A stretch of 34,099 nt of DNA from Gammaproteobacteria bacterium (GTDB taxonomy: Bacteria; Pseudomonadota; Gammaproteobacteria; GRL18). The stretch's first letter is position 1; every line of letters begins with the position of its first letter. The notes beneath the pieces were generated by a model. That model did not search any database. It was given only the letters and a program-made list of their open reading frames with translations, and was not told the origin of the DNA. Position numbers and translations under genes: made by a program. The DNA lies in the NCBI GenBank assembly GCA_015231865.1, contig JADGAU010000018.1, positions 1-34,099 of the forward strand, written 5' to 3'. Positions 334 through 32,760 of the stretch are shown in pieces.

Positions 334-3300
334 TTATTCTACTCGTTTAGCAGATAAACACTCAATTGGCTGAGGTTTGTCAATATAATATCCCTGAGCG
401 TAATCAACTCCAATAGCAGTTAGCTCTGATAAAATATCTTTATCTTCAACAAATTCTGCAATTGTTTTAATACCCATAACATGGCCAATCGTGTTGATTG
501 CTTTAACCATTGCTAAATCAATTGAATCATGACAAATATCCTTAATAAAAACACCATCTATCTTAAGATAGTCGACTTGTAAATTTTTGAGATACTCAAA
601 TGATGACAAGCCACTGCCAAAATCATCCAACGAAAAACAGCAACCGATTGCCTTTAATTCATCCATAAAACGAGTAGCTGTTCTTAGATTTGAGATGGTT
701 GCCGTTTCTGTGACTTCAAAACAAATAATTTCAGGGTTAACTTTAAATTCCCTAAAACATTGTTTCAGATCTTGAAGAGAAGCAATATTACCTAATGTCG
801 AGCCAGATAAATTAATAGACACTTTTTCAATTGTATTTAATGTTATTACACTTTGCTGACTTAACCAATCTAAAGTTTTTCTTACCACAAAGATATCAAT
901 TTCTTGCATCAGATTATAACGTTCCGCTGCGGGTATAAAAGCACCAGGTGGAATCATATTTCCATCATCACCACGAATTCTTACAAAGATCTCATAATGA
1001 CCCGTTTGGGGGGTTGGATTATCAATCGGTGCGATTGTTTGATAATAAAGATGGAGATTATTTTCATCCAAAGCTTTTCGAATAATACTAACCCATTGCA
1101 TTTGTCCTTGGCGCACCTGCAATTCTTCATCATTGACTTCATAAGTATGAACTCTATTTCTTCCTAAATCTTTAGCAGTATAACAAGCCGTATCAGCCAT
1201 ACTTAATAGATGGCTTAAATCACGAGTTGTTTGATCGATGGGAACAATACCAATACTGATACCAATAGAAAATTGTTTATCTTCCCAGGGAAAACGGAAG
1301 TTTTTGATTTCTTCACGTATTTCTTCACAAACTTCCAGTCCTTTTTTGATTGGACAATTTAATAGTAATATAGCGAATTCATCACCACCTAACCTAGCCA
1401 GGGTATCTCCCCGGCGTAATTTATAACTGATTAGCTGAGACACTTGTTTAAGCAATTCATCACCCGCTAAATGACCACAGGTATCATTCACTATTTTGAA
1501 TTGATCCAAATCCAGATAACACAAAACATGTTGATGTAATTGTTCATTTGCATCATTTATCAAGTCCTGTAATTTTTTCTCAAATGAATATCGGTTCATC
1601 AATCCGGTTAGACTGTCATGACTTGCCTGGTGGGATAAAACTTTTTGCATTTCCCGAGCCGATGTGACGTCGTGAAATACCATCACAGCGCCAATAATTT
1701 CATCACGACTATTAACGATCGGAGCAGAGGTATGTTTGATGGTGAATTTTTCATCAAATTTGGAATAAACCCTATGTACTTCTGTTTCATTGACCGTTTT
1801 ATTCTGTTCAATAGCGGGGGTAAGTAATTCAGTTAATAATTCATCGCCATTTTCATCATAGGCATGATAGACGGTATTAAATTCTTTACCAACGGCTTCT
1901 GAAAGCTCCCATCCAGTGATGCGTTCAGCCGCATTATTTATATACTGAATATAACCATTGTGATCCGTTGTAATCACGCCATCAGCTATAGAAGCTAAGG
2001 TAATTAAAGCACGTTCTTTTTCTTCGAAAAGTTGATCTTCAATTTTTTGTTTTTCTGAAATATCTCTGACTGAGGCGGTAAATTGCAGTGAATGTAAATC
2101 TTTATTTCTGCTAACAGTAACTTCCATAAAAAATAGTTCTTTATTAGAACGTTGCCCAAGCAGCTTTCTTTTTCTATTCAACAATAAAAAACTGTCTGTT
2201 TGTTTGTTATTGTTGAGCAAAGACAGCATCGGTTCATCCGGGTGCAAAATATTGATAAATAATGAGTTTAAAACTGCACGCTCAGATACACCGAAAATCT
2301 TTTCCGCTCCGGGATTAAAACTGGTGATTTTAGCGTTTGAGTCAAAAGTAATAATGCCATCATGAATATCTCGAACAATTGACTTAGTTTGATGTACAGC
2401 ACTTTCCAATGCTGAAATAACTTGATTATATTGGCGTGCGATTTGCCCTACTTCTGTAAATGGTTCAACAGGTACCCGCCTGGTTAAATCTTTGGATGAT
2501 GCCTGTTTGTGCATTGAATTTAACAAATCAATTAAATCTGTTTTAGCACCATGCTCAGAGACATTCAGACCATCTAACTCATCCTTTTTAGAAACACGCA
2601 AGGCACTCATTTTATTAATAACATAAAATAAGATAAATGCTGTTGTAAACGCCCACATACCAACAACAAAAATACCAATAGCTTGTACCTTTAATTGCTC
2701 AAAAAAACTTAAACCGGTATTTAAAAGTTCTGGATTACCAAATATAGCGACACATAAGGTACCCCAAATCCCTGCGGCTAAATGTACTGGAATTGCACCA
2801 ATTGCATCATCTAACTTTGCTTTAAGCATCAATTGATTAGCAAGCATCATAATAATTGCCCCTATTGTGCCAATGATAAAAGCATCGACTGCAGTGACCA
2901 CGTGTGCATTTGCGGTAATAGAAACTAAACCGGCTAAAATACCATTAATTGGTGCAACCAATTGATCTTCCTGTTGCAGTGGAAGTACCAATAAAAATAG
3001 ATAAGCAGAGATACCACCCGCTACAGCGGATAAAATTGTATTTGCTATAATGCCAGGCACACTGGAATTAAACTCTAGGGTACTACCACCATTAAAACCT
3101 ATCCATCCGATAACAAAGAAAAAGACACCCAGTAAAGCCAAACTAGGCTGACTACCCGAAATAACATTCACTTTACCATTTTTAAATCGCCCATTTCTGG
3201 GACCTACAATTAATAAAGCGGCTAAAGCAATCCAGCCACCAACACTATGCACAACTGTAGAACCTGCAAAATCAACAAATCCCATTGAACTGAGCCATAC

Positions 3301-3744
3301 TTCAGAATTAGTTAATGCACTGCCCCAGACCCAATGTCCAGAAACGGGATAAATAAAGGCGGCGATAATTAGACTAAGAATAATATAATGATGAAACTTA
3401 ACTCTTTCTGCTATGGCTCCCGAAACTATGGTAACTGCAGTAGCACAAAACAGGCTTTGGAAAATAAAAAAAGTCGTGTTCCAGGCTGAGCCCTGGCCAA
3501 TATCAAGAACAAAATGACTTTGCCCTACTATTCCCAGCAGACTATCTCCGAACATCAATCCAAAACTGAATAACCAGAAAACGGCAAAGGTAACCGTAAA
3601 ATCAACCAGGTTTTTCATAGCCACGTTGATCATGTTTTTACTTCGGGTTAATCCTGTTTCAAGCAATAAGAATCCTGCTTGCAGCAGTAAAACAAGTACC
3701 GAGGCGATGAGTAACCAGAGAATATTTAAAGACGTTTGTTCCAT
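334..3744 (-). CDS. Ammonium transporter-HAMP-like-PAS-PAS-GGDEF-EAL fusion
   Basis: A 1136-residue protein. Residues about 1-385 are an Amt/MEP/Rh channel with about 11 membrane segments. They carry the family signature DFAGSTVVHSVGG and a second pore histidine in PVHLAAGIWGTL, so both twin-histidine positions appear kept. A HAMP-like linker (about 390-455) leads to two PAS domains (about 456-560 and 575-700). A GGDEF domain follows with an intact GGDEF at 786-790 and DLDQFKIVND. The C-terminal EAL domain has EIFVR in place of EALLR, but the metal-binding glutamate (E918), the EVTET motif, DDFGSG, KIDG and AEFVED are all present. It could therefore both make and degrade cyclic di-GMP. The Amt part probably acts as an ammonium sensor or transport-coupled switch, as in other Amt fusions. 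No glnK lies next to it. It starts at ATG and is divergent from the receiver gene at 4002. Confidence 0.9.
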   Translation of the reverse strand: MEQTSLNILWLLIASVLVLLLQAGFLLLETGLTRSKNMINVAMKNLVDFTVTFAVFWLFSFGLMFGDSLLGIVGQSHFVLDIGQGSAWNTTFFIFQSLFCATAVTIVSGAIAERVKFHHYIILSLIIAAFIYPVSGHWVWGSALTNSEVWLSSMGFVDFAGSTVVHSVGGWIALAALLIVGPRNGRFKNGKVNVISGSQPSLALLGVFFFVIGWIGFNGGSTLEFNSSVPGIIANTILSAVAGGISAYLFLLVLPLQQEDQLVAPINGILAGLVSITANAHVVTAVDAFIIGTIGAIIMMLANQLMLKAKLDDAIGAIPVHLAAGIWGTLCVAIFGNPELLNTGLSFFEQLKVQAIGIFVVGMWAFTTAFILFYVINKMSALRVSKKDELDGLNVSEHGAKTDLIDLLNSMHKQASSKDLTRRVPVEPFTEVGQIARQYNQVISALESAVHQTKSIVRDIHDGIITFDSNAKITSFNPGAEKIFGVSERAVLNSLFINILHPDEPMLSLLNNNKQTDSFLLLNRKRKLLGQRSNKELFFMEVTVSRNKDLHSLQFTASVRDISEKQKIEDQLFEEKERALITLASIADGVITTDHNGYIQYINNAAERITGWELSEAVGKEFNTVYHAYDENGDELLTELLTPAIEQNKTVNETEVHRVYSKFDEKFTIKHTSAPIVNSRDEIIGAVMVFHDVTSAREMQKVLSHQASHDSLTGLMNRYSFEKKLQDLINDANEQLHQHVLCYLDLDQFKIVNDTCGHLAGDELLKQVSQLISYKLRRGDTLARLGGDEFAILLLNCPIKKGLEVCEEIREEIKNFRFPWEDKQFSIGISIGIVPIDQTTRDLSHLLSMADTACYTAKDLGRNRVHTYEVNDEELQVRQGQMQWVSIIRKALDENNLHLYYQTIAPIDNPTPQTGHYEIFVRIRGDDGNMIPPGAFIPAAERYNLMQEIDIFVVRKTLDWLSQQSVITLNTIEKVSINLSGSTLGNIASLQDLKQCFREFKVNPEIICFEVTETATISNLRTATRFMDELKAIGCCFSLDDFGSGLSSFEYLKNLQVDYLKIDGVFIKDICHDSIDLAMVKAINTIGHVMGIKTIAEFVEDKDILSELTAIGVDYAQGYYIDKPQPIECLSAKRVE
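481..517 (-). repeat. 37-bp exact inverted repeat, inner copy
   Basis: This is the partner of positions 1-37, identical in reverse complement over 37 bases. It lies in the part of the EAL domain encoding AMVKAINTIGH, downstream of the KIDG lysine motif. The two copies are about 440 bp apart in opposite orientation. Confidence 0.9.
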
Positions 3745-9857: not shown

Positions 9858-10337
9858 CTAGTAAAGGTCGCCATCCATACTCTCTTCTTCACCCAGTAAT
9901 TTCCCCATATCTACTAAAATAATCAGATCACCTTTGGCGCTATAAACTCCCATAATAAATTTAGAATTATCATCGGTACTTAGATTAGGTGTCATTTCTA
10001 TTCCACTTTTAGGAATATCAGCCACCTCTGCAATCTGATCAACTAATAAACCTAAGCTTTGATCTTCTGTCTCAATAACAATAACTCGTGTATTATCATC
10101 AATTTCTCGAGGAGGCAAATTGAAACGAGAACGTGTATCAACCACAGTAACAACATTACCACGCAAATTAATAATGCCCAGAACATAAGGCGGAGCACCT
10201 GGAACCGGTGCAATTTCTATATCACGGAGTACTTCTTTAACATGCATAACATCAATGCCATACTTTTCGCCTTCAAGCATAAAAGTTACCCATTGCGTCA
10301 TCGCTTCAATTTCTTGATTACCGAATTCGTAGTCCAT
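9858..10337 (-). CDS. cheW: Chemotaxis coupling protein CheW
   Basis: A 159-residue protein made of one CheW domain (about 15-155). It contains WVTFMLEGEKYGIDVMHVKE, the motif GIINLRGNVVTVVD, and LGLLVDQIAEVADI. CheW links receptors to CheA in the signalling array. I chose the ATG at 10337, which follows a clear AGGAAA site. The frame stays open to 10421, but the 28 extra residues do not belong to the domain and start without a ribosome site. It is separated from parP upstream by about 190 bp, so it may have its own promoter; none is obvious. Confidence 0.93.
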   Translation of the reverse strand: MDYEFGNQEIEAMTQWVTFMLEGEKYGIDVMHVKEVLRDIEIAPVPGAPPYVLGIINLRGNVVTVVDTRSRFNLPPREIDDNTRVIVIETEDQSLGLLVDQIAEVADIPKSGIEMTPNLSTDDNSKFIMGVYSAKGDLIILVDMGKLLGEEESMDGDLY

Positions 10338-10490
10338 AATTTTTCCTGAGTCTTTTGCTGGTATTAACCTTAAATAATAACATGTAAATCTTGATGTAAT
10401 TCTTAAAGTTAATATCGGCAAGCTTAAAAAATAGTTTAACCAATTTAACTCATTCTATATGGTTTGATTAAATTTTAAGTAGAAATATTC

Positions 10491-12749: not shown

Positions 12750-13631
12750 TCAATCACTGATTAGATCCTGAGTTTCTGCATTATAACTAGAGGGATAAGC
12801 GTCAACTTCACCAATTTTACTGGCTTGATTAGCATTAACTTTTGTTACTTTACGTGTGTTATCACTTCCTAAAACAACTAAAACCACGCGGCGGTTTTCT
12901 CTTCTACCCGCAGCAGTATCATTTGAAGTTTTTGGTTTGTACTTACCATAACCAATTGCCTGCATCTTGTTTGGATCAACGCCTTCTGCCTCAAATAAAT
13001 GAACTACACTTGCAGCTCTTGCTGAAGATAATTCCCAGTTCGACGGAAATCTTGGACTATTAATAGGCACATCATCGGTATAACCTTCAATTTGTAATTG
13101 ATTAGGGTAAACTTTGATAATAGAAGCAAGTTTAGCCAGGACATCTTCTGCATCTTCGGATAATTTTGAATTCCCTATTTCAAATAAAATACTGGATTTA
13201 ATTTCAATTTCAAGCCAGTTTTCATCCTGAGTGATATTAATCAAACCTTGAGCCATTAACTCAACTACAGAGTTTTTAACTTCTGTAGAAATTTCCGTTA
13301 AAGTTGGATTTTGATTATTATGCTCTTTTTCTTCAAACTCATCGGGGATTGGAAGTTCTATAAGATTTTCGGTATCAGATTTCTTTTTGGCTGTAAGCTC
13401 GGAGTCCCGATCATCTTGCACATCTTCTTCAACAACATCAACGGGAGCACCATCAAAACTTTCTACAATTGAATCGGAAAGAATTCTATATTTGCCGGTA
13501 TTAACAGATGAAATGGCATACATCACAACAAAAAAAGCAAACAATAGCGTAATAAAATCAGCATAAGAAACCAGCCAACGATCAAGATTGTCATGCTCTA
13601 TTTTAGTTTGATGTCTACGTTTTCGGGCCAT
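12750..13631 (-). CDS. motD: Flagellar stator protein MotD (MotB family)
   Basis: A 293-residue stator subunit. A short basic cytoplasmic start is followed by one membrane helix, with the proton-binding aspartate D25 in LVSYADFITLL. A variable acidic linker (about 65-115) leads to an OmpA/MotB peptidoglycan-binding domain (about 125-265) with IEGYTDDVPINS, NWELSSARA and GRRENRRVVL. It pairs with MotC, encoded 16 bp upstream. In Pseudomonas the MotC/MotD pair supports swarming and high-load torque beside MotA/MotB. Whether this organism has a second stator is not visible here. There is no clear ribosome site, so translation may depend on coupling with motC. Confidence 0.92.
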   Translation of the reverse strand: MARKRRHQTKIEHDNLDRWLVSYADFITLLFAFFVVMYAISSVNTGKYRILSDSIVESFDGAPVDVVEEDVQDDRDSELTAKKKSDTENLIELPIPDEFEEKEHNNQNPTLTEISTEVKNSVVELMAQGLINITQDENWLEIEIKSSILFEIGNSKLSEDAEDVLAKLASIIKVYPNQLQIEGYTDDVPINSPRFPSNWELSSARAASVVHLFEAEGVDPNKMQAIGYGKYKPKTSNDTAAGRRENRRVVLVVLGSDNTRKVTKVNANQASKIGEVDAYPSSYNAETQDLISD

Positions 13632-13647: not shown

Positions 13648-14436
13648 TTAATATTTTAATTTCTTAGTCATTTTAACACTATCCGGATTTGTTTTATCCA
13701 GATAGCCATCTAGCTTTCTTTCTATATTTCTTGGGTTTTCCCCTTCTGCTATAGATATAAAACCATCAATAATCATTTCTCTAAATTGTGCTTCTTCTTC
13801 AACAAGATACTTAATTTTATTAGAAACAGGTATGAGTATAAGATTGGCTAAACCAATACCATAAATAGTTGCCACAAAGGCAACGGCAATACCAGGGCCA
13901 AGCGTGCTGGGTTCTGACAAACTTCCCATCACATGAATTAAACCTAAAATTGCACCAATAATACCAATTGTTGGACTATATCCGCCCATAGACTCATAGA
14001 CTTTGGCACTTGAGAGATCAAATTTTTCTTTTACTTCTAATTCTAATTCCAGAAAATCACGAATATCATCCGGGTCACTTCCATCAACTATCAATTCTAA
14101 GCCTTTACGAGCAAATAAATCGGTTTCTTTCATAGAAAAGTTTTCAAGACCTAAAATTCCTTCTCTTCTGGCAATATTACTCCAACTGAGAATTTTCTCT
14201 ATCATATCTCGTTTATGAAAGCGTGGGGGAACAAAAACCCAGGTGAATAAGCGCATGGCGCGCAGAAATACAGGTAAAGGAGTTTGTAATAAAACGGCAC
14301 CTAAAGTACCACCAAAAACAATAAACGCAGCAGGACCGTTAACTAATGAAAGTAAGCTTCCACCTTCCATCAACTGGCCAATAATAATGGCCGAGACACC
14401 GAGAATAAAACCTATGACGCCTAAAACATCAATCAT
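13648..14436 (-). CDS. motC: Flagellar stator protein MotC (MotA family)
   Basis: A 262-residue protein with four membrane helices: two near residues 5-50, and two between 145 and 205 (GYSPTIGIIGAILGLIHVMG; GPGIAVAFVATIYGIGLANL). A large charged cytoplasmic loop carries the motor-contact region (about 85-140, rich in Arg and Glu). This is the MotA/PomA/MotC layout and usual length. It has a good ribosome site (AAGGGAT) and is followed at once by motD. In relatives with this gene order cheB lies just upstream; here the preceding gene is cheA itself. Confidence 0.93.
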   Translation of the reverse strand: MIDVLGVIGFILGVSAIIIGQLMEGGSLLSLVNGPAAFIVFGGTLGAVLLQTPLPVFLRAMRLFTWVFVPPRFHKRDMIEKILSWSNIARREGILGLENFSMKETDLFARKGLELIVDGSDPDDIRDFLELELEVKEKFDLSSAKVYESMGGYSPTIGIIGAILGLIHVMGSLSEPSTLGPGIAVAFVATIYGIGLANLILIPVSNKIKYLVEEEAQFREMIIDGFISIAEGENPRNIERKLDGYLDKTNPDSVKMTKKLKY

Positions 14437-14495
14437 TTGATGATCCCTTTACCCCACTCAAACTATTAAACTCTAGTGGTCTACCCTCAGCCATA

Positions 14496-14544
14496 TACCA
14501 CTAAACCTTGAAAATCTTTACTTGATATTCAAGGTTTAGTGGTA
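14496..14544. repeat. Perfect 17-bp inverted repeat between cheA and motC
   Basis: The arms at 14496-14512 and 14528-14544 (TACCACTAAACCTTGAA and its complement) match at all 17 positions, with a 15-base spacer. No T run follows on either strand, so it is not a standard terminator. It could be a regulator-binding palindrome, an RNA-processing hairpin that sets cheA/motC ratios, or the leftover of a small mobile element. Confidence 0.9.
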
Positions 14545-14573
14545 GTTTCATGACTGATGATGTTATCGAAATA

Positions 14574-16850
14574 TTAGGTCACTCTTGAAGACATTAAACT
14601 AGGAATATCAACAATTAAGGCAATTTGTCCATCACCAGTAATGGTTGCTCCAGCAAGCCCTTGCGTGCCTTGAAGTAATGCACCAAGTGGTTTAATGACA
14701 ACTTCTTCCTGACCGATTAATTCATCAACAACAAACCCAACTTTTTTCGTTCCAACATGAACGACAACGACGTGACCTTTAGACGGTAATTCATCATATT
14801 CATGTCCTTTAATCAACCATTTAGTCAAATAAAATAGCGGTAAAGGCTTATCTCTGACCATAATCACTAATTGTCCATCAACCATATTCGTCTTGGTTAA
14901 ATCTAAATGGAAGATTTCACTAACACTAACTAATGGTAATGCAAACGATTGTTCTTTTAAATTGACCATCAAAGTTGGCATAATTGCCAAGGTCAATGGT
15001 ACCATAATTGAAATAACGGTGCCTCGTCCAATTTCAGAATCAATTTCAACTGAACCATTTAATTGACTGATACGTGTTCTTACCACGTCCATACCGACAC
15101 CACGACCTGAAACATCAGAAATCACATCTTTAGTTGAAAATCCTGGCATAAAAATTAAACTAAAACATTCTTTTTTATCTAATCTTTCAGCCGTTTCGTG
15201 ATCCATTAAACCTTTTTGAACGACTTTATTTCGTAAGAATTCCGCATCCATACCGGCACCATCATCTTCTATGGTTAGTAATATATGGTCACCTTCCTGC
15301 GCTGCTGAAAGTGTTACCGTACCTTGACGTGGTTTGCCATTTTGTTCTCTAACATCGGGTAATTCAACACCATGATCAACTGAGTTTCTCACTAAGTGAA
15401 CTAAAGGATCCGCAAGAGCCTCAACAAGGTTTTTATCTAAGTCAGTTTCTTCTCCGATCAAAATCAATTGCACTTCTTTCTTCATTGAACGGGAAATATC
15501 ACGAACAACTCGAGGGAAACGCCCAAATACCTTCTTAACCGGCTGCATACGTGTCTTCATGACAGAAGTTTGCAGATCGGATGTTACCACATCCAAACTA
15601 TTAACAGCTTTACTTAAATCTTCATTAGCTAGATTATTATCTAAGGTAACCAGCCTATTTCTAACTAACACCAATTCACCAACCATATTCATAATATCAT
15701 CGAGTCGTTTGGTATCTACTCTAACGGTAGTTTCAGATTGAACCTGATTAGCATCTCTTTTACCTTTTGCTGGTGCAGGTTTTGAAGCAGCGACTTCAGG
15801 TGCAGCAGGTTTATTCGCTGGCGGTGGTGGTGGTGGTGGTTCTACCTTATTCTCAGGCTTAACTTCTGCCGGTTTGGGTTCCGGTTCTGCTTTTGCATCT
15901 ATACCATGATCTTCAGTAGATACGTTACCAAATTGACCTTTACCGTGCAGTTCATCTAAATATTGTTCAAATTCATCATCACTAATTATGTCTGAATCAC
16001 CACCCACAGTTGCTTTTGGTTTCTGCTCCGTCTTTTGTTCTTTTTTAGGTTTTGTTTTTTGTTCATCAGAAGATGAACTACTAGGTGAACCGCCTTGCCC
16101 ATGAAGTTGGTCTAATAAGCTATCAAATTCAGAATCTGTAATTTCGTCGCTAACATTGACATCATCAGGCCCACTATCATCATCATCAAGACCAAAAAGA
16201 TCATCTCCATCATCAGCATCATCAAGCCCAAATAAATCAACATCGTCGGATTTTTCTTTAGCTGCCTGGCTGCCTGCTTGCTTTGAAGAGCCTGAAGCTT
16301 CTGAATCTAGTGAGTCCAGTAAGTTCTCAAATTCTTCATCTGTGAAATCTTTTTCTTCCTCCGAATCAGAACCTGCAGCATTTTCATTTGCTGTTGCAGT
16401 AGACTCAATAGGTTCCTGTTTCTGTGCTTTAGGTTCTGGTTCGGAGGCACCTGCAGATGCTTCCCCGGATAAAATTCTATCTAATGCTTTAAGTTGTTCA
16501 GGATCTGCTGCACTTGGTTCCTGACCTAATTTAAGTTCATCAAACATTGAGTTCAGGCTATCAAGCACGGTAAGAAAAACATCCATCATGCCTGCATTGA
16601 TATGCAACTCGCCGTTTCTAATCAAACCGAAAACATCTTCAGCACGGTGGCAAAGTTCGACTAGAGGGGTAAGACTTAAGAAGCCCGCACCACCTTTGAT
16701 GGTATGGAAGCTTCTAAAAACAGAATTAATTTTATCAGCATCGTCTGGAGTTTGCTCTAGATCTACCAGCTCTGCATTAAGTGTTTCTAGTATCTCTCCA
16801 GCTTCCACCAGGAAATCCTGGAGAATTTCATCATCTGCATCGAACGACAT
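14574..16850 (-). CDS. cheA: Chemotaxis histidine kinase CheA
   Basis: A 758-residue kinase. The Hpt domain (1-105) has phospho-site H49 in SFHTIKGGAGF. Residues about 145-375 are a long acidic, low-complexity linker in place of a recognisable P2 domain. It contains three similar motifs (FTDEEFENLLDSL, ITDSEFDSLLDQLHG, ISDDEFEQYLDELHG), two copies of DLFGLDD, and a run of prolines. The dimerisation helices (about 385-445) precede the HATPase domain with N489 in LVRNSVDHG, DDGAGM, and GRGVGMDVV. A C-terminal CheW-like regulatory domain (about 620-755) ends with the usual GDGQIALIVDI motif. It is preceded by a strong AGGTGGGG site, 12 bp after cheZ. It should phosphorylate CheY. No cheB follows. 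Confidence 0.96.
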   Translation of the reverse strand: MSFDADDEILQDFLVEAGEILETLNAELVDLEQTPDDADKINSVFRSFHTIKGGAGFLSLTPLVELCHRAEDVFGLIRNGELHINAGMMDVFLTVLDSLNSMFDELKLGQEPSAADPEQLKALDRILSGEASAGASEPEPKAQKQEPIESTATANENAAGSDSEEEKDFTDEEFENLLDSLDSEASGSSKQAGSQAAKEKSDDVDLFGLDDADDGDDLFGLDDDDSGPDDVNVSDEITDSEFDSLLDQLHGQGGSPSSSSSDEQKTKPKKEQKTEQKPKATVGGDSDIISDDEFEQYLDELHGKGQFGNVSTEDHGIDAKAEPEPKPAEVKPENKVEPPPPPPPANKPAAPEVAASKPAPAKGKRDANQVQSETTVRVDTKRLDDIMNMVGELVLVRNRLVTLDNNLANEDLSKAVNSLDVVTSDLQTSVMKTRMQPVKKVFGRFPRVVRDISRSMKKEVQLILIGEETDLDKNLVEALADPLVHLVRNSVDHGVELPDVREQNGKPRQGTVTLSAAQEGDHILLTIEDDGAGMDAEFLRNKVVQKGLMDHETAERLDKKECFSLIFMPGFSTKDVISDVSGRGVGMDVVRTRISQLNGSVEIDSEIGRGTVISIMVPLTLAIMPTLMVNLKEQSFALPLVSVSEIFHLDLTKTNMVDGQLVIMVRDKPLPLFYLTKWLIKGHEYDELPSKGHVVVVHVGTKKVGFVVDELIGQEEVVIKPLGALLQGTQGLAGATITGDGQIALIVDIPSLMSSRVT

Positions 16851-16862
16851 GTTGTCCCCACC

Positions 16863-17633
16863 TTAAAATCCAAGACTCGATAAGAGGTCGTCAACCTCAT
16901 CCTGACCAGAAACTGTTTCTTTTGCGTTGGATACGCCTGGAACGACGGGGCCATCTAAACTTGTTTTTGCCTGTCTATCCTTTTCGGCTTTATCCTGTTC
17001 AGTTTCGTCAGAATTACCATCAACACTTAAATGCTCACTTGCAATAGTCACAATATTAACAAGAGCAGCTTCAACATCTTCTACTAACTTAATTACCTTA
17101 AAAATAACCTGACCGGTAATATCCTGAAAATCCTGAGCCATTAGCACTTCATTTAAATGAGTTTTAAGTGTCTCTCCATTTTTATTGGCAGTTTCTAAAA
17201 AATCTTTAACATTTTTACTTAATTCTCTAAATTCATTGGCTTTCATTTCCTTTCTGGTTAATTTTAACCAGCTTTGTTCCAATTCTTTTGAGGAATTAAT
17301 CATTGATTCACAAATAGGAATAGACATCTCTATTTGCGTCATGGTTAAGTCTGCAGCTTGTTGTGTTTTAGTAACAACAAAATGTAGTCTTTCGCGTGCA
17401 TCTTTAATATCAATATTTGCAAGTTCTGCAATACGTGTATCTCCAGTAAAGTCAGAGAAAGCTTCATGCAAATCTCGAGTCAGTTTGCCTAATTGTTTAT
17501 AAAGAGAAGTTTCACGGGATGTTGTTAATTCATCAAGGATAATGTTAACTTTATCATCATCGCCAGATTTAGCGTGATTTAGAAGGGTTTCAATACGTTG
17601 TATCAGGTGTTCATCTATTAAGCTATCAGCCAT
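16863..17633 (-). CDS. cheZ: CheY-P phosphatase CheZ
   Basis: A 256-residue, almost entirely helical protein. The catalytic region AQDFQDITGQVIFKVIKLVE contains the DFQD-x-TGQ motif with the active-site glutamine. The extreme C-terminus DEVDDLLSSLGF is the CheY-binding peptide, reached through a flexible linker (about 205-240). CheZ speeds dephosphorylation of CheY-P. It lies between cheY and cheA with an AAGGAGAC ribosome site and is clearly in the same operon. Confidence 0.95.
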   Translation of the reverse strand: MADSLIDEHLIQRIETLLNHAKSGDDDKVNIILDELTTSRETSLYKQLGKLTRDLHEAFSDFTGDTRIAELANIDIKDARERLHFVVTKTQQAADLTMTQIEMSIPICESMINSSKELEQSWLKLTRKEMKANEFRELSKNVKDFLETANKNGETLKTHLNEVLMAQDFQDITGQVIFKVIKLVEDVEAALVNIVTIASEHLSVDGNSDETEQDKAEKDRQAKTSLDGPVVPGVSNAKETVSGQDEVDDLLSSLGF

Positions 17634-17760
17634 TTAAAAGTCTCCTTATTTTATAGCATCTGATTGTAAACAACTATGTTACTTGTTTAAAAATGTTACT
17701 TGTTTAAAATAAGTCACTAGTTTCAAGACAATCACAGATAGTAAAAATATAAAATAAGGA

Positions 17761-18144
17761 TTAGCCAATTCTTTCAAAAATTTTGTCAATCTTTTCTTTT
17801 AACGTAGCCGCAGTAAAAGGTTTAACAATATAGCCATTAACGCCCGCTTGTGCTGCTTCGATAATTTGTTCACGTTTTTGTTCTGCTGTTACCATCAACA
17901 CTGGTAGTTTAGCTAATTTTGCATCTGCTCGGCATGCTTTTAGTAAATCAATACCTTCCATACCCGGCATATTCCAATCCGTCACAAGGAAGTCAATTCC
18001 GCCTTGTTTTAAAATAGGTAATGCAGTTAATCCATCATCTGCCTCAACAGTATTCGTAAACCCAAGGTCACGTAAAAGATTTTTAATGATCCGACGCATC
18101 GTTGAAAAGTCATCAACCACTAAAATTTTCATGTCTTTATTCAT
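17761..18144 (-). CDS. cheY: Chemotaxis response regulator CheY
   Basis: A 127-residue single receiver. D11/D12 form the acidic pocket and D56 in [10 protein letters not shown] is the phosphorylation site. VTAEQ contributes the switch threonine, and VKPF the conserved lysine. Phosphorylated CheY binds the flagellar switch. It is the first gene of cheY-cheZ-cheA, with a strong GGGGAG site and about 290 bp of upstream non-coding DNA that probably holds its promoter. Confidence 0.95.
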
Positions 18145-18437
18145 TTATTCTCCCCTTAGCTGTCAAGGTAGCAGATTACTAAGTTTAAAATTCAAATTAA
18201 CTCGAACCTATACTGCTGATATTTCAAAATGTAGCGAGGCTTTTTAAAAGATTGTCAGTATAAGTCAAAATAGCTATCACAAATACAAATTATATCTCTA
18301 TCATTGTATATCGTCTATTATCAAAAAAGATAAAGGTGCTATTTTTTAATTTATACCCGTAATCTTTTAAAAAACCTGACTGAATTTGCCTTAATAATCC
18401 ATACTTTTGGCCAAATATCATGGGTATACTCTCTGTT
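18145..18437. other. Non-coding region between fliA and cheY
   Basis: About 290 bp of AT-rich DNA between the fliA stop and the cheY start, both on the minus strand. I looked for a sigma-28 promoter (TAAA-N15-GCCGATAA) and for a sigma-54 box and found none that fits. No GC-rich terminator is evident after fliA. A separate promoter for the che genes is likely from the spacing but not demonstrated. Confidence 0.4.
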
Positions 18438-19199
18438 CTATTTATTTTCCTCAATAATCGATTTCATTTTAGTCTGCAACCTGATCACAGCTTGTGCATG
18501 AATCTGACTAACTCTTGACTCACTAACACCTAAAATAGCACCAATTTCTCGTAAATTCATTTCTTCATCATAGTATAAAGAAATTACCAGACTTTCTCTT
18601 TGAGGTAAATCACTTATACTTTTAGAAATAAGTTTTTTCATATCTTCTTTATAGACGTCATCGACTAATAATGGCTGAAAATTTGGCACATTATCAATCA
18701 TAGATTCATCATTATATCCATACTCTTCAAAACTTAAAATATGATGATTGTTAGTATCCTGTAACATTTTATGATATTCATCGATTGTTACGCCTAACTC
18801 ATCAGCAATCTCAAATCCCGTTGATTGACGGCCTTTTCTATTTTCTATTTTTTTAATGACATCTGAGACCATTCTAGTATTACGGTGAACTGAGCGAGGG
18901 GTCCAATCATTTTTTCTGATTTCGTCTAACATAGCCCCGCGAATACGAATGCCTGCGTAGGTTTCAAAACTCGCCCCCTGCTCCTTGTCAAACTTCTTAG
19001 CCGCTTCTATTAATCCAAGCATGCCTGATTGTATCAAATCTTCAACATGAACATGTTCAGGTAATTTTGATTTTAAGTGAAAGGCTATTCGCTTAACCAT
19101 GACGATGTGACTTTCCACCAACTGGTTGAATTCATCCGTCGTAGTACTATCTGTATATGCCTGATAAGCATCTTCCATTTTTACCGCATTTGCTATCAT
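18438..19199 (-). CDS. fliA: Flagellar sigma factor FliA (sigma-28)
   Basis: About 253 residues. Region 2 includes HVEDLIQSGMLGLIEAAKKF and FETYAGIRIRGAMLDEIRKN. Region 3 includes the GRQSTGFEIADELGV stretch, and the region 4 helix-turn-helix is MNLREIGAILGVSESRVSQI. It directs RNA polymerase to late flagellar and chemotaxis promoters. I prefer ATG at 19199, which follows GGTGGGG. An upstream ATG at 19235 would add 12 residues (MDIKGRKGGDRV) not typical of the family. It is 84 bp after fleN, at the end of the flhA-flhF-fleN-fliA row. Confidence 0.94.
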   Translation of the reverse strand: MIANAVKMEDAYQAYTDSTTTDEFNQLVESHIVMVKRIAFHLKSKLPEHVHVEDLIQSGMLGLIEAAKKFDKEQGASFETYAGIRIRGAMLDEIRKNDWTPRSVHRNTRMVSDVIKKIENRKGRQSTGFEIADELGVTIDEYHKMLQDTNNHHILSFEEYGYNDESMIDNVPNFQPLLVDDVYKEDMKKLISKSISDLPQRESLVISLYYDEEMNLREIGAILGVSESRVSQIHAQAVIRLQTKMKSIIEENK

Positions 19200-28362: not shown

Positions 28363-29523
28363 ATGACCCAAAATACCGGCCCCAGAGAAATTACTACTCC
28401 TTTTAGACCTATTCCACTTGATGTACCAGAGGGTATGAAGCCTAACGAATTTTTTAATAGTACTGAAAACCTGAATGATCTGGTCAATAATAATGGTCTG
28501 CTTTCAAACCCTGAAAACTTATTGCTTTATCGAAAAGCACTGGGGCATAGCAATATATTTGATACTTCAATTATCTATAACACTTCTAAAACGATTCTTA
28601 ATCCACTTGGCAGGCCCGTTAGACGAACTCAGGTGCCTAAAGGTGTGAAACATGTCTGGAATCGCATGAATCAGATTATTATTGAATACATGGTTGAGAA
28701 ATTCCCAGATCCCAAAAAACACTTATTGCTTGCCGGTGAAGCAAGTTTAGACTCGACCTGGCCATTAACATCACCTGGCGTGCCCAGTATTAGAATGCTT
28801 CATAATCACTTTATTGTCTTTGATCAGCAACAATTGAAACAAGCTAAAATTGCAGATACTGATAACCCCAATCTGACCGATGGCGGCCAACACAGTTTGT
28901 TTCAGGCCTATATGAAAGATGTATACCGACAATTTATGAGCAATCTTGATCTTAAAATTTTAAAACCAATGCATACTGAAGACTCTCAATTAAAACTTAC
29001 CGGGTATCCACAAGGCTTACCTTGTTGGGAAATAACCGGTGGCGTAGAAAGTCTCAAAAATGTTCGTTTATGGTGTGAATATGATCAAGTCTTAAAAGGT
29101 TTTATTGATTTTTATCGAACGTTCTTCTCACAAGTTTCTTCTAGAAATTCACCTGTACCAAAAGATAGTTATTTTCCAAAGCAAATAAGATCTGAGCTAT
29201 TATTTAATAATGACTTTTTGAAAACCGCAAAGAAAATTCGTAAGCAATGTATTTCTGATCCAAGATATGCCAATGCGATTCGCTGGCAGCCCGCATTTAA
29301 GCAATTAATCTTTAGAAATGACGAAGGTAAGTTAGTGGTAACGATTAGTCAAAATTCTATTGGTAATGCAATTACTGAACTTTTAGGTGTGGTTGTGAAA
29401 CGTTCCCCGGATGCCGAAGCTTATGAAAAAGCTGAGCCCGCATTAATTGAAAAACTTCTTGAAGTTAGACAAAGACTAATTGAAGCAGATCTCGGTGATG
29501 CAATAGATACGTCTAGCTGGTAA
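28363..29523 (+). CDS. Unrecognised 386-residue soluble protein
   Basis: I do not recognise this family. The protein is hydrophilic, with no signal peptide or membrane helix, and mixed alpha/beta composition. Notable segments are RTQVPKGVKHVWNRMNQIII (about 90-110) and VPSIRMLHNHFIVF (about 145-158), where the HNHF motif could be metal- or phosphate-binding. Another is YPQGLPCWEITGG (about 220-232), and the C-terminal helix is rich in Glu and Leu. It starts at ATG after an AGGATAA site and is followed 61 bp later by a small membrane protein on the same strand, so the two may form an operon. Codon use looks like its neighbours. It is clearly a real gene from its length and ribosome site. Confidence 0.7.
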   Translation: MTQNTGPREITTPFRPIPLDVPEGMKPNEFFNSTENLNDLVNNNGLLSNPENLLLYRKALGHSNIFDTSIIYNTSKTILNPLGRPVRRTQVPKGVKHVWNRMNQIIIEYMVEKFPDPKKHLLLAGEASLDSTWPLTSPGVPSIRMLHNHFIVFDQQQLKQAKIADTDNPNLTDGGQHSLFQAYMKDVYRQFMSNLDLKILKPMHTEDSQLKLTGYPQGLPCWEITGGVESLKNVRLWCEYDQVLKGFIDFYRTFFSQVSSRNSPVPKDSYFPKQIRSELLFNNDFLKTAKKIRKQCISDPRYANAIRWQPAFKQLIFRNDEGKLVVTISQNSIGNAITELLGVVVKRSPDAEAYEKAEPALIEKLLEVRQRLIEADLGDAIDTSSW

Positions 29524-30906: not shown

Positions 30907-32760
30907 TTATAAGTCTCTGGCTAAGCGGAAACCGGTTAAATTAAGATTACGGTTAGTGAAGCTTCCATTACGATAAGTAGCTCGTAAGTTTGTGGCATCG
31001 AAACTCCAGGAACCACCACGATTGACTCGAGTATTACCATTTGATGGACCAGATGGGTCAGTTACATTACGAGATGGGTAGCTACCTTTCCTATCCTGTA
31101 CCCATTCCCAAACATTACCACTCATATCATATAATCCTAAACCATTTGGTGATTTTTGACCCACGCTATGATGTCCGTTTTCCCATTCTTCATCATACCA
31201 ACCATAACTAGATACATCATCTCCTCCACAATATTTCTGTTTTTTGCCACCACTACGACAAGCGTACTCCCATTCGGCTTCACTGGGTAATCGATACTTT
31301 TTACCTGTACGTTGATTTAGTTTCTTAATAAAATCCTGTACATCATTCCAACTAACACTCTCTACAGGGTGGCTGCTTCCTTTTGGAAATTTGGATGGAT
31401 TATAGCCCATAATCTCACTCCACTGACTCTGTGTGACTTCATACTTACCTAAGTAAAAATTCTTTGTGATACAGACTTTATGAACAGGTTTTTCATCATT
31501 ATTACCATAATAACTCCCCATATCAAAGCAGCCTTTAGGCACCTTTATTAACTCCATACCGGTAATCGATTCAGTTATGCTTCTAGAGTTTTCCTTCAAC
31601 TTGGCATAAACTGTTTGGTTAACACCTGCTACCAACTTAATACTCTGTTCCCAAGTGCTATAACCATCCTTACTAACTTCAATCTCATAGATACCAGGTT
31701 TAAGTTTTAGGTCTAACCGTGTGCTACCCTTATCTTCACCATTAATTGTCACTGTATCACCATTGAGATTTGAACGGATAGTCAATGTGGCATCCACAGG
31801 TATAACTTTAGTCTTAAGCGCTTCTTTAGCATTAAATTCCTTTAACTTAATTTCAGCCAGAACTTTATAATGGCCATTGGAGTATTCTTTTAAATAAGCC
31901 TGATACATTTCTTTGCTATTATCAGATATCACCGTATTCCAAAAGGTGTTTTCCTGTTTGTCGGCCATATCCGAGTCAGCACTGGCTACCTGAATGTTAG
32001 GCTGAGTAACCGTAACATTCCCATTAAAGTAAAAATCACCTAAGATAACCCCTTCAAAATAGGGAACTTGTTTTTTACCAGAAGCATTACTAACGGCAAT
32101 GGCTGTTTGTTTAAAGACTTTCTCGACATTAAAACCTTTTTTATTGATATTTTTCATTAACTTTTCAGTAAATAAACCATTTCTACCACTGCCATCAGCG
32201 GCCACATCACCCGGAGAAGTGGCATATAAAATTACGGAGCCTGTTGGAGCCTGCATTTTAGCTAAACCACGAGTTGAACTTCTAAAACTTCGTGAAAATG
32301 GATTGTTACGACACGCATCAAGAATCATCATATTTAGGCCATTATCGGCTAATGACATTTCACTTAAAATCTGGCCTGCATCCACCGCTTTATATTTAAT
32401 ATTCGCTTCAGTTATATTGGCACCAGTGGGAACCAGGTAGTTAGTATTATTTACCTGTACCCCATGTCCTGCAAAAAAGAATAAGCCAACTGTATTTTTT
32501 TGATAAAGCTTTTTACCAAACTTCGTAATGGCCTCTTCCATTTTTTGCTGATTGGCATTAATCAGTTTAGTTACTTTAAAACCTTGTCGTTTTAAAACTT
32601 TAGTCATATCTGTGGCATCATTACCAGGATTAGTTAGTGGCGCATTTTTATAATCAGAATTACCAATCACTAAAGCAATACGGTTTTGTTTTGCCTGTAC
32701 AGCTTGAATACAGAAACTTATCAATAAAGCTGTGATAAATAGAGAGTATTTTTTAAACAT
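30907..32760 (-). CDS. Secreted caspase-like protease with PEGA and SUMF1 domains
   Basis: A 617-residue protein. A signal peptide (about 1-23, cut after AVQA) is followed by a caspase/peptidase C14 domain (25-250). The dyad residues are H99 in FFFAGHGVQ and C150 in ILDACRNNPF, and both are present. A linker (about 270-312) looks like the short helical segment often seen after such domains. A PEGA domain (about 322-388) is followed by a SUMF1/FGE-fold domain (401-617) with GMELIKVPKGCFDMG, SHPVESVSWNDV, YRLPSEAEWEYACR and GNVWEWVQD. Where formylglycine-generating enzymes have two active-site cysteines after RGGS, this protein has Phe and Leu (RGGSWSFDATNLRATYR), so it is unlikely to make formylglycine and may bind a ligand. 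It is alone in its transcript. The start has no clear ribosome site, but the signal peptide fixes it. Confidence 0.88.
   Translation of the reverse strand: MFKKYSLFITALLISFCIQAVQAKQNRIALVIGNSDYKNAPLTNPGNDATDMTKVLKRQGFKVTKLINANQQKMEEAITKFGKKLYQKNTVGLFFFAGHGVQVNNTNYLVPTGANITEANIKYKAVDAGQILSEMSLADNGLNMMILDACRNNPFSRSFRSSTRGLAKMQAPTGSVILYATSPGDVAADGSGRNGLFTEKLMKNINKKGFNVEKVFKQTAIAVSNASGKKQVPYFEGVILGDFYFNGNVTVTQPNIQVASADSDMADKQENTFWNTVISDNSKEMYQAYLKEYSNGHYKVLAEIKLKEFNAKEALKTKVIPVDATLTIRSNLNGDTVTINGEDKGSTRLDLKLKPGIYEIEVSKDGYSTWEQSIKLVAGVNQTVYAKLKENSRSITESITGMELIKVPKGCFDMGSYYGNNDEKPVHKVCITKNFYLGKYEVTQSQWSEIMGYNPSKFPKGSSHPVESVSWNDVQDFIKKLNQRTGKKYRLPSEAEWEYACRSGGKKQKYCGGDDVSSYGWYDEEWENGHHSVGQKSPNGLGLYDMSGNVWEWVQDRKGSYPSRNVTDPSGPSNGNTRVNRGGSWSFDATNLRATYRNGSFTNRNLNLTGFRLARDL

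Follow-up and report, generated by a model that had tools for sequence, protein, structure and literature searches.

Receptor methylation by CheR and CheB is regarded as one of the core elements of nearly all chemosensory pathways (PMC7390727). Helicobacter pylori performs chemotaxis without CheR and CheB and with CheV (PMC11357200). Receptors of the 40H class are the ones expected to feed the F6 pathway (PMC7534058), and of the CheR paralogues of Pseudomonas aeruginosa only CheR2 binds the pentapeptide of the receptor in its own pathway (PMC7390727). Among dispersed repeats, the published consensus of Escherichia coli ERIC/RU-1 is 127 nt long (reading tatacccgtcatatttcaagctgcag...; PMC2759123), a review gives the range of ERIC as Enterobacteriaceae and Vibrionaceae (PMC10969869), and in Yersinia the mRNA upstream of an ERIC is reported to be destabilised when the repeat is transcribed with it (PMC2229807).

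Here, we describe a polar flagellar chemotaxis cluster in which motC stands directly after cheA. The window, i.e. the whole stretch of 34,099 nucleotides that was analysed, is a complete contig (C99) of a gammaproteobacterial genome of 3.54 Mb in 299 contigs that is 94.5% complete. Our main reading, to which we give a probability of about 0.72, is that the polar cheB was lost, that flagellar taxis works with little or no methylation feedback, and that an ERIC-like repeat copy came to lie in the gap independently; the methylation-poor working is the part that we infer.

The polar cluster and its relatives

On the minus strand, the gene order is flhA-flhF-flhG(MinD-like)-fliA-cheY-cheZ-cheA-[gap]-motC-motD-ParA-like-(411-aa protein)-cheW (Table 1). 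The gene set of an F6-type cluster is present, namely cheY-cheZ-cheA and motC-motD, a ParA-like gene and cheW beside flhA-flhF-flhG-fliA; the 411-aa protein encoded between the ParA-like gene and cheW has no solid Pfam match. A sequence-only reading of this DNA had held that cheB is missing between cheA and motC and that no cheR lies in the window. Both statements stand: exactly 137 bp separate cheA from motC, and neither a CheB nor a CheR domain was found in the window contig.

Table 1. Features of the polar chemotaxis cluster and repeat copies within it (positions refer to the whole window)
Feature	Position	Strand	Remarks
cheW, same cluster as cheA	9858..10421	-	Pfam CheW
motD (MotB-type stator subunit)	12750..13631	-	Pfam MotB_plug, OmpA
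motC (MotA-type stator subunit)	13648..14436	-	Pfam MotA_ExbB, MotA_N
cheA-motC gap, cheB's place in most related clusters	14437..14573	.	no recognisable cheB remnant
Short copy (53-bp) of genome-wide ERIC-like palindromic repeat	14494..14546	.	PWM 21.9 bits
cheA, polar (F6-type) chemotaxis cluster	14574..16850	-	Pfam Hpt, H-kinase_dim, HATPase_c, CheW
cheZ	16863..17633	-	Pfam CheZ
cheY	17761..18144	-	Pfam Response_reg; adjoins cheZ
Second ERIC-like repeat copy (54 bp), between cheY and fliA	18209..18262	.	arms 27.3 and 17.3 bits
Third ERIC-like repeat copy (77 bp), between cheY and fliA	18352..18428	.	arms 26.0 and 20.2 bits

The usual order, cheA followed by cheB, is borne out by a named GTDB collection, where cheB comes directly after cheA in 66 of 77 readable loci. 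The remaining 11 loci have motC directly after cheA and are family-like by identity or gap; the family-like named records include metagenome-assembled genomes and a 'gamma proteobacterium symbiont of Bathyaustriella thionipta'. The cheA region was additionally searched in 57 related genomes. In same-family genomes, the cheA orthologs are 69-71% identical. The cheA-motC junction is readable in 17 of these genomes, from three other genera, and none has cheB after cheA. Their cheA-motC gaps measure 3-164 bp, some of them only 3-4 bp, and none holds a palindrome (n=17). A tblastn search with a polar CheB query gave no match to a decayed cheB in the window gap or in the gaps of seven relatives. Because motC follows cheA without cheB in 17 genomes of three other genera, the loss of cheB predates the split of the sampled genera and is shared by the family. 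The common ancestor of the family would accordingly be where the cheB of the polar (F6-type) cluster was lost, an event that would have placed motC directly after cheA.

Elsewhere in the window, a 1136-aa protein (334-3744) combines an ammonium transporter with PAS, GGDEF, and EAL domains, and a 617-aa protein (30907-32760) joins caspase-like (Peptidase_C14), PEGA, and FGE-sulfatase domains. A 386-aa protein (28363-29523) has no Pfam match; its homologs, recognised by N-terminal sequence, adjoin cheV in the related genomes G015 (L398 2604-3761) and G007 (L401 5500-6657).

The palindromic repeat in the cheA-motC gap

The sequence-only reading had correctly described an inverted repeat that has perfect 17-bp arms, a 15-base spacer and no T run. 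The arms, at 14496-14512 (TACCACTAAACCTTGAA) and 14528-14544 (TTCAAGGTTTAGTGGTA), match without mismatch along all 17 bp across a spacer of 15 nt, and the ends of the copy read TATACCAC...GTGGTAGT. When loops of up to about 50 nt are allowed, the window has a single perfect inverted repeat of 17 bp, and 20 dinucleotide-preserving shuffles of it have none. As RNA of the transcribed (minus) strand, the gap folds at -47.2 kcal/mol (z -7.1). A search for an intrinsic terminator in the gap gave no match, there being no T run, and positions 14300-18500 gave no match to a known RNA family in Rfam at E up to 1.

The arm recurs in the genome, where it marks a dispersed repeat with dozens of further copies. 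Seven other places match the 17-mer arm at ≤2 mismatches, four of them with the identical sequence TACCACTAATCTTTGAA, and one 99-bp copy has 57 BLAST places in the genome. A degenerate arm pattern drawn partly from the window copy matches 64 times, against one match in the reversed control; a pattern independent of the window copy matches 62 times here and 33 times in G015, with 0 matches in reversed-pattern controls, a few in other genomes of the family, and single one-mismatch matches outside it. With a weight matrix (PWM) built from the other copies and without those of the window, position 14494 is the third-best site of the window (21.9 bits, compared with a maximum of 18.7 over 30 shuffled windows); the two sites ranked above it are the left arms of the cheY-fliA copies. 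In the outer stem of the repeat, 11 of 24 pairs show both-sided changes, with a covariation score that 0 of 500 shuffles reached and from which slid controls stayed far below. The cluster as a whole carries three ERIC-like copies in two gaps, the cheY-fliA pair lying side by side.

These observations bear on the proposal that a mobile element excised cheB and that the palindrome is the scar. The palindrome does sit exactly at the place of the missing cheB. However, cheB is equally absent from same-family junctions that have no palindrome, including those of 3-4 bp, and the arm is part of a repeat of which the genome holds dozens of further copies. The comparison of gaps among relatives and the search for further arm copies, both suggested in the sequence-only reading, thus tell against its scar, which we have rejected as an explanation with hardly any probability left to it. 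The absence of cheB, which is old and shared by the family, and the palindrome, a genome-specific copy of a repeat, are independent of each other.

Full copies of the repeat are often exactly 127 bp long with TATACCC...GGGTATA ends, as seen in several copies of this genome and its relatives. With regard to a TA target-site duplication on insertion, a trait of ERIC, the termini read TATA (5'-TA ends); the genomes compared all belong to other genera. Aligned globally with the E. coli ERIC consensus, a full copy has 79 identities over 134 columns (z up to 8.0), and full alignment with a Vibrio ERIC gives z 9.1. This 128-bp ERIC, from a Vibrio sp. HDW18 plasmid (L458), has a central 25 nt identical to that of the repeats in this genome and at nearly the same position as in the full copies; the 25-nt stretch occurs at 11 places on the plasmid. 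By length, ends, and alignments to E. coli and Vibrio ERIC, the dispersed repeat is to be classed as ERIC-like at the sequence level; this applies to the full copies only, and the copy in the gap resembles the family at the arms alone, its centre being unlike that of the 127-bp copies.

The strong fold (z -7.1), within a likely operon, might also be taken to mean that the hairpin serves this operon specifically as a regulatory element, such as an attenuator or a processing site, and is not a copy of a dispersed repeat; the perfection of its arms, which differ from most other copies by both-sided changes, points the same way. Yet the hairpin is conserved in no relative's gap, it has no terminator features, and its arms match the dispersed repeat, which makes such a dedicated element quite improbable. 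A mobile repeat copy may still act in regulation. If transcribed together with cheA and motC, the 53-bp copy would fold into a strong hairpin and might alter how stable the cheA and motC portions of the mRNA are relative to each other, in the manner described for ERIC of Yersinia (PMC2229807).

Remaining methylation enzymes and receptor sites

The genome has eight CheB domains, all outside the window contig, as well as seven CheR domains and one CheR N-terminus at a contig end. Four CheBs are of the receiver type (C272, C28, C222, and C297); the others are CheB-CheR fusions or belong to a CheB/CheR pair on C33 that has one internal stop. The receiver-type CheBs of the genome and the family were placed in a tree with 27 polar CheBs, leaving out the fusion CheBs and the C33 CheB. 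In this tree, which has some long branches and leaves the placement of the Wsp-like and C297 rows uncertain, the main-cluster CheBs of the genome and the family form a clade separate from the polar CheBs (support 100/100). Since the receiver-type CheBs fall outside the polar clade, the polar cheB ortholog is, judging by the proteins tested, lost rather than moved elsewhere. The sequence-only reading had left two outcomes for methylation-based adaptation, encoded elsewhere or lost, to be settled by a genome-wide search for cheB and cheR. The outcome lies between them: paralogous CheB and CheR proteins are indeed encoded elsewhere, but none of the CheBs tested is the polar ortholog.

The CheB found throughout the family sits in an F7-like cluster of the order cheY-cheA-cheW-ParA-like-MCP-cheR-cheD-cheB, which includes a 36H receptor with an EWEEF end. 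In the genome itself, the cluster evidently falls on two contigs, C32, which ends inside cheR, and C28, which starts inside cheD, the adjacency of the two being judged from synteny. Other settings of CheB and CheR are a second cheA-cheR-cheB-cheD cluster, Wsp-like and other clusters, CheB-CheR fusions, and, in relatives, Pil-Chp. Proteins of che clusters, including CheD, share a short terminal motif, IELF, IDLF, or IDFF (L120 12757-13995, L025 7306-10226), and in G001 the additional protein that follows cheB has an ending of this type too.

Two relatives, G007 (100% complete) and G015 (99% complete, 10 contigs), have two full CheBs and two full CheRs each, solely in the F7-like and Pil-Chp clusters. 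The outgroup genome G044 has the polar cheB and keeps cheV-cheR-flgB. With all full CheRs of G007 and G015 in other clusters and cheV-cheR-flgB kept in G044, the flagellar cheR has apparently disappeared as well, judging by the full CheRs of these two relatives. CheW proteins of CheV length occur in every family genome searched (1-3 per family genome, one in the genome itself). CheV, which is CheW plus a receiver, and CheZ would be the remaining ways of resetting the signal.

The receptors of the family are of two kinds, 36H-like with WEEF-type ends and many of 40H length. The 36H receptors of the F7-like cluster have intact E/Q pairs at all three methylation sites. For the 40H receptors, an initial methylation-motif regular expression proved too narrow and was dropped in favour of comparison with outgroups at fixed offsets from the hairpin tip (-88, -81, and +129), using 38 receptors from five family genomes and 12 from outgroups. 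At -81, E/Q is found in 12/38 family receptors versus 12/12 in the outgroup (p 2e-5), and at -88 in 10/38 versus 9/12 (p 0.005), p-values that serve only as a guide given that the rows are paralogs and phylogenetically dependent; at +129, the difference (14/38 versus 6/12) is not significant. The background E/Q of 0.19 is the same for family and outgroup receptors. Among 185 positions, -81 shows the largest drop in E/Q and -88 ranks fifth. Three conserved Glu/Gln positions of the C-helix stalk (offsets 94, 100, and 108) drop in the family 40H receptors as well, and the erosion of Glu/Gln is therefore not specific to methylation sites. All three sites are kept in 0/38 family and 5/12 outgroup 40H receptors.

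In addition to cheB, the family has apparently lost the corresponding methyltransferase and numerous methylation sites of its receptors. From the loss of cheB and the frequent lack of Glu/Gln at the methylated positions of 40H receptors, we infer flagellar taxis with little or no methylation feedback. The main rival to a methylation-poor pathway is that the flagellar receptors came to be methylated by enzymes of the F7-like or the second cheA-cheR-cheB-cheD system, which would have left adaptation intact and the polar cheB redundant. F7-like CheB and CheR occur in those relatives that were searched and evidently also in this genome (C32/C28), and in 9/38 family 40H receptors E/Q is preserved at two of the three sites, so that some methylation by enzymes of another system is conceivable. 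The counterpart of the C-terminal pentapeptide by which CheR2 is directed to one receptor in Pseudomonas (PMC7390727) is, however, the WEEF-type end of the 36H receptors, whereas most 40H receptors stop right after the coiled coil, and the site residues of the latter are strongly reduced at -88 and -81. We regard such a takeover as rather unlikely. The methylation-poor pathway has a stricter form, in which receptor methylation would play no part in the F6 pathway of the whole family: both cheB and cheR of the polar system would be lost, the 40H sites decaying, and CheV and CheZ resetting the signal, with the full methylation machinery kept by the F7-like system of the same cell. For this version we see a chance just short of even.

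Comparison with known pathways and repeats

The cluster resembles the F6 polar flagellar cluster of the Vibrio, Pseudomonas, Marinobacter, and Marinomonas type, having the same order fliA-cheY-cheZ-cheA-...-motC-motD-ParA-like-cheW next to flhA-flhF-flhG, and, as in F6-type systems, the genome carries 40H-length membrane receptors elsewhere. It differs from that type in that cheB is absent after cheA, no polar-type CheB is among the CheBs tested, many receptors are without methylation residues, and the two most complete relatives have no cheR outside other chemosensory clusters. A literature search yielded no precedent for a gammaproteobacterial flagellar pathway without only its own CheR and CheB, which does not prove that there is none.

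The dispersed repeat shares with ERIC (also IRU or RU-1), the 127-bp enterobacterial MITE (PMC2759123, PMC2229807), its length of 127 bp, TATACCC...GGGTATA termini, a long imperfect stem, and a copy number in the tens, and its 127-bp copies have their centre in common with a Vibrio ERIC. In contrast to ERIC, the host belongs to an uncultured gammaproteobacterial family, the interior is A+T-rich, and the gap copy has merely 53 bp. ERIC-like repeats of 127 bp outside Enterobacteriaceae and Vibrionaceae extend the range given in the review (PMC10969869).

There is a functional likeness to Helicobacter pylori (PMC11357200), where flagellar taxis likewise proceeds apparently without dedicated methylation enzymes and where CheV is kept, as it is here. 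H. pylori belongs to another phylum and its pathway to another class, and the genome described here, unlike H. pylori, retains CheR and CheB in other chemosensory systems. A family in which the enzymes of one pathway were lost and those of another kept within the same cell offers a natural experiment, both on the question of which receptors require methylation and on what CheV can achieve by itself.
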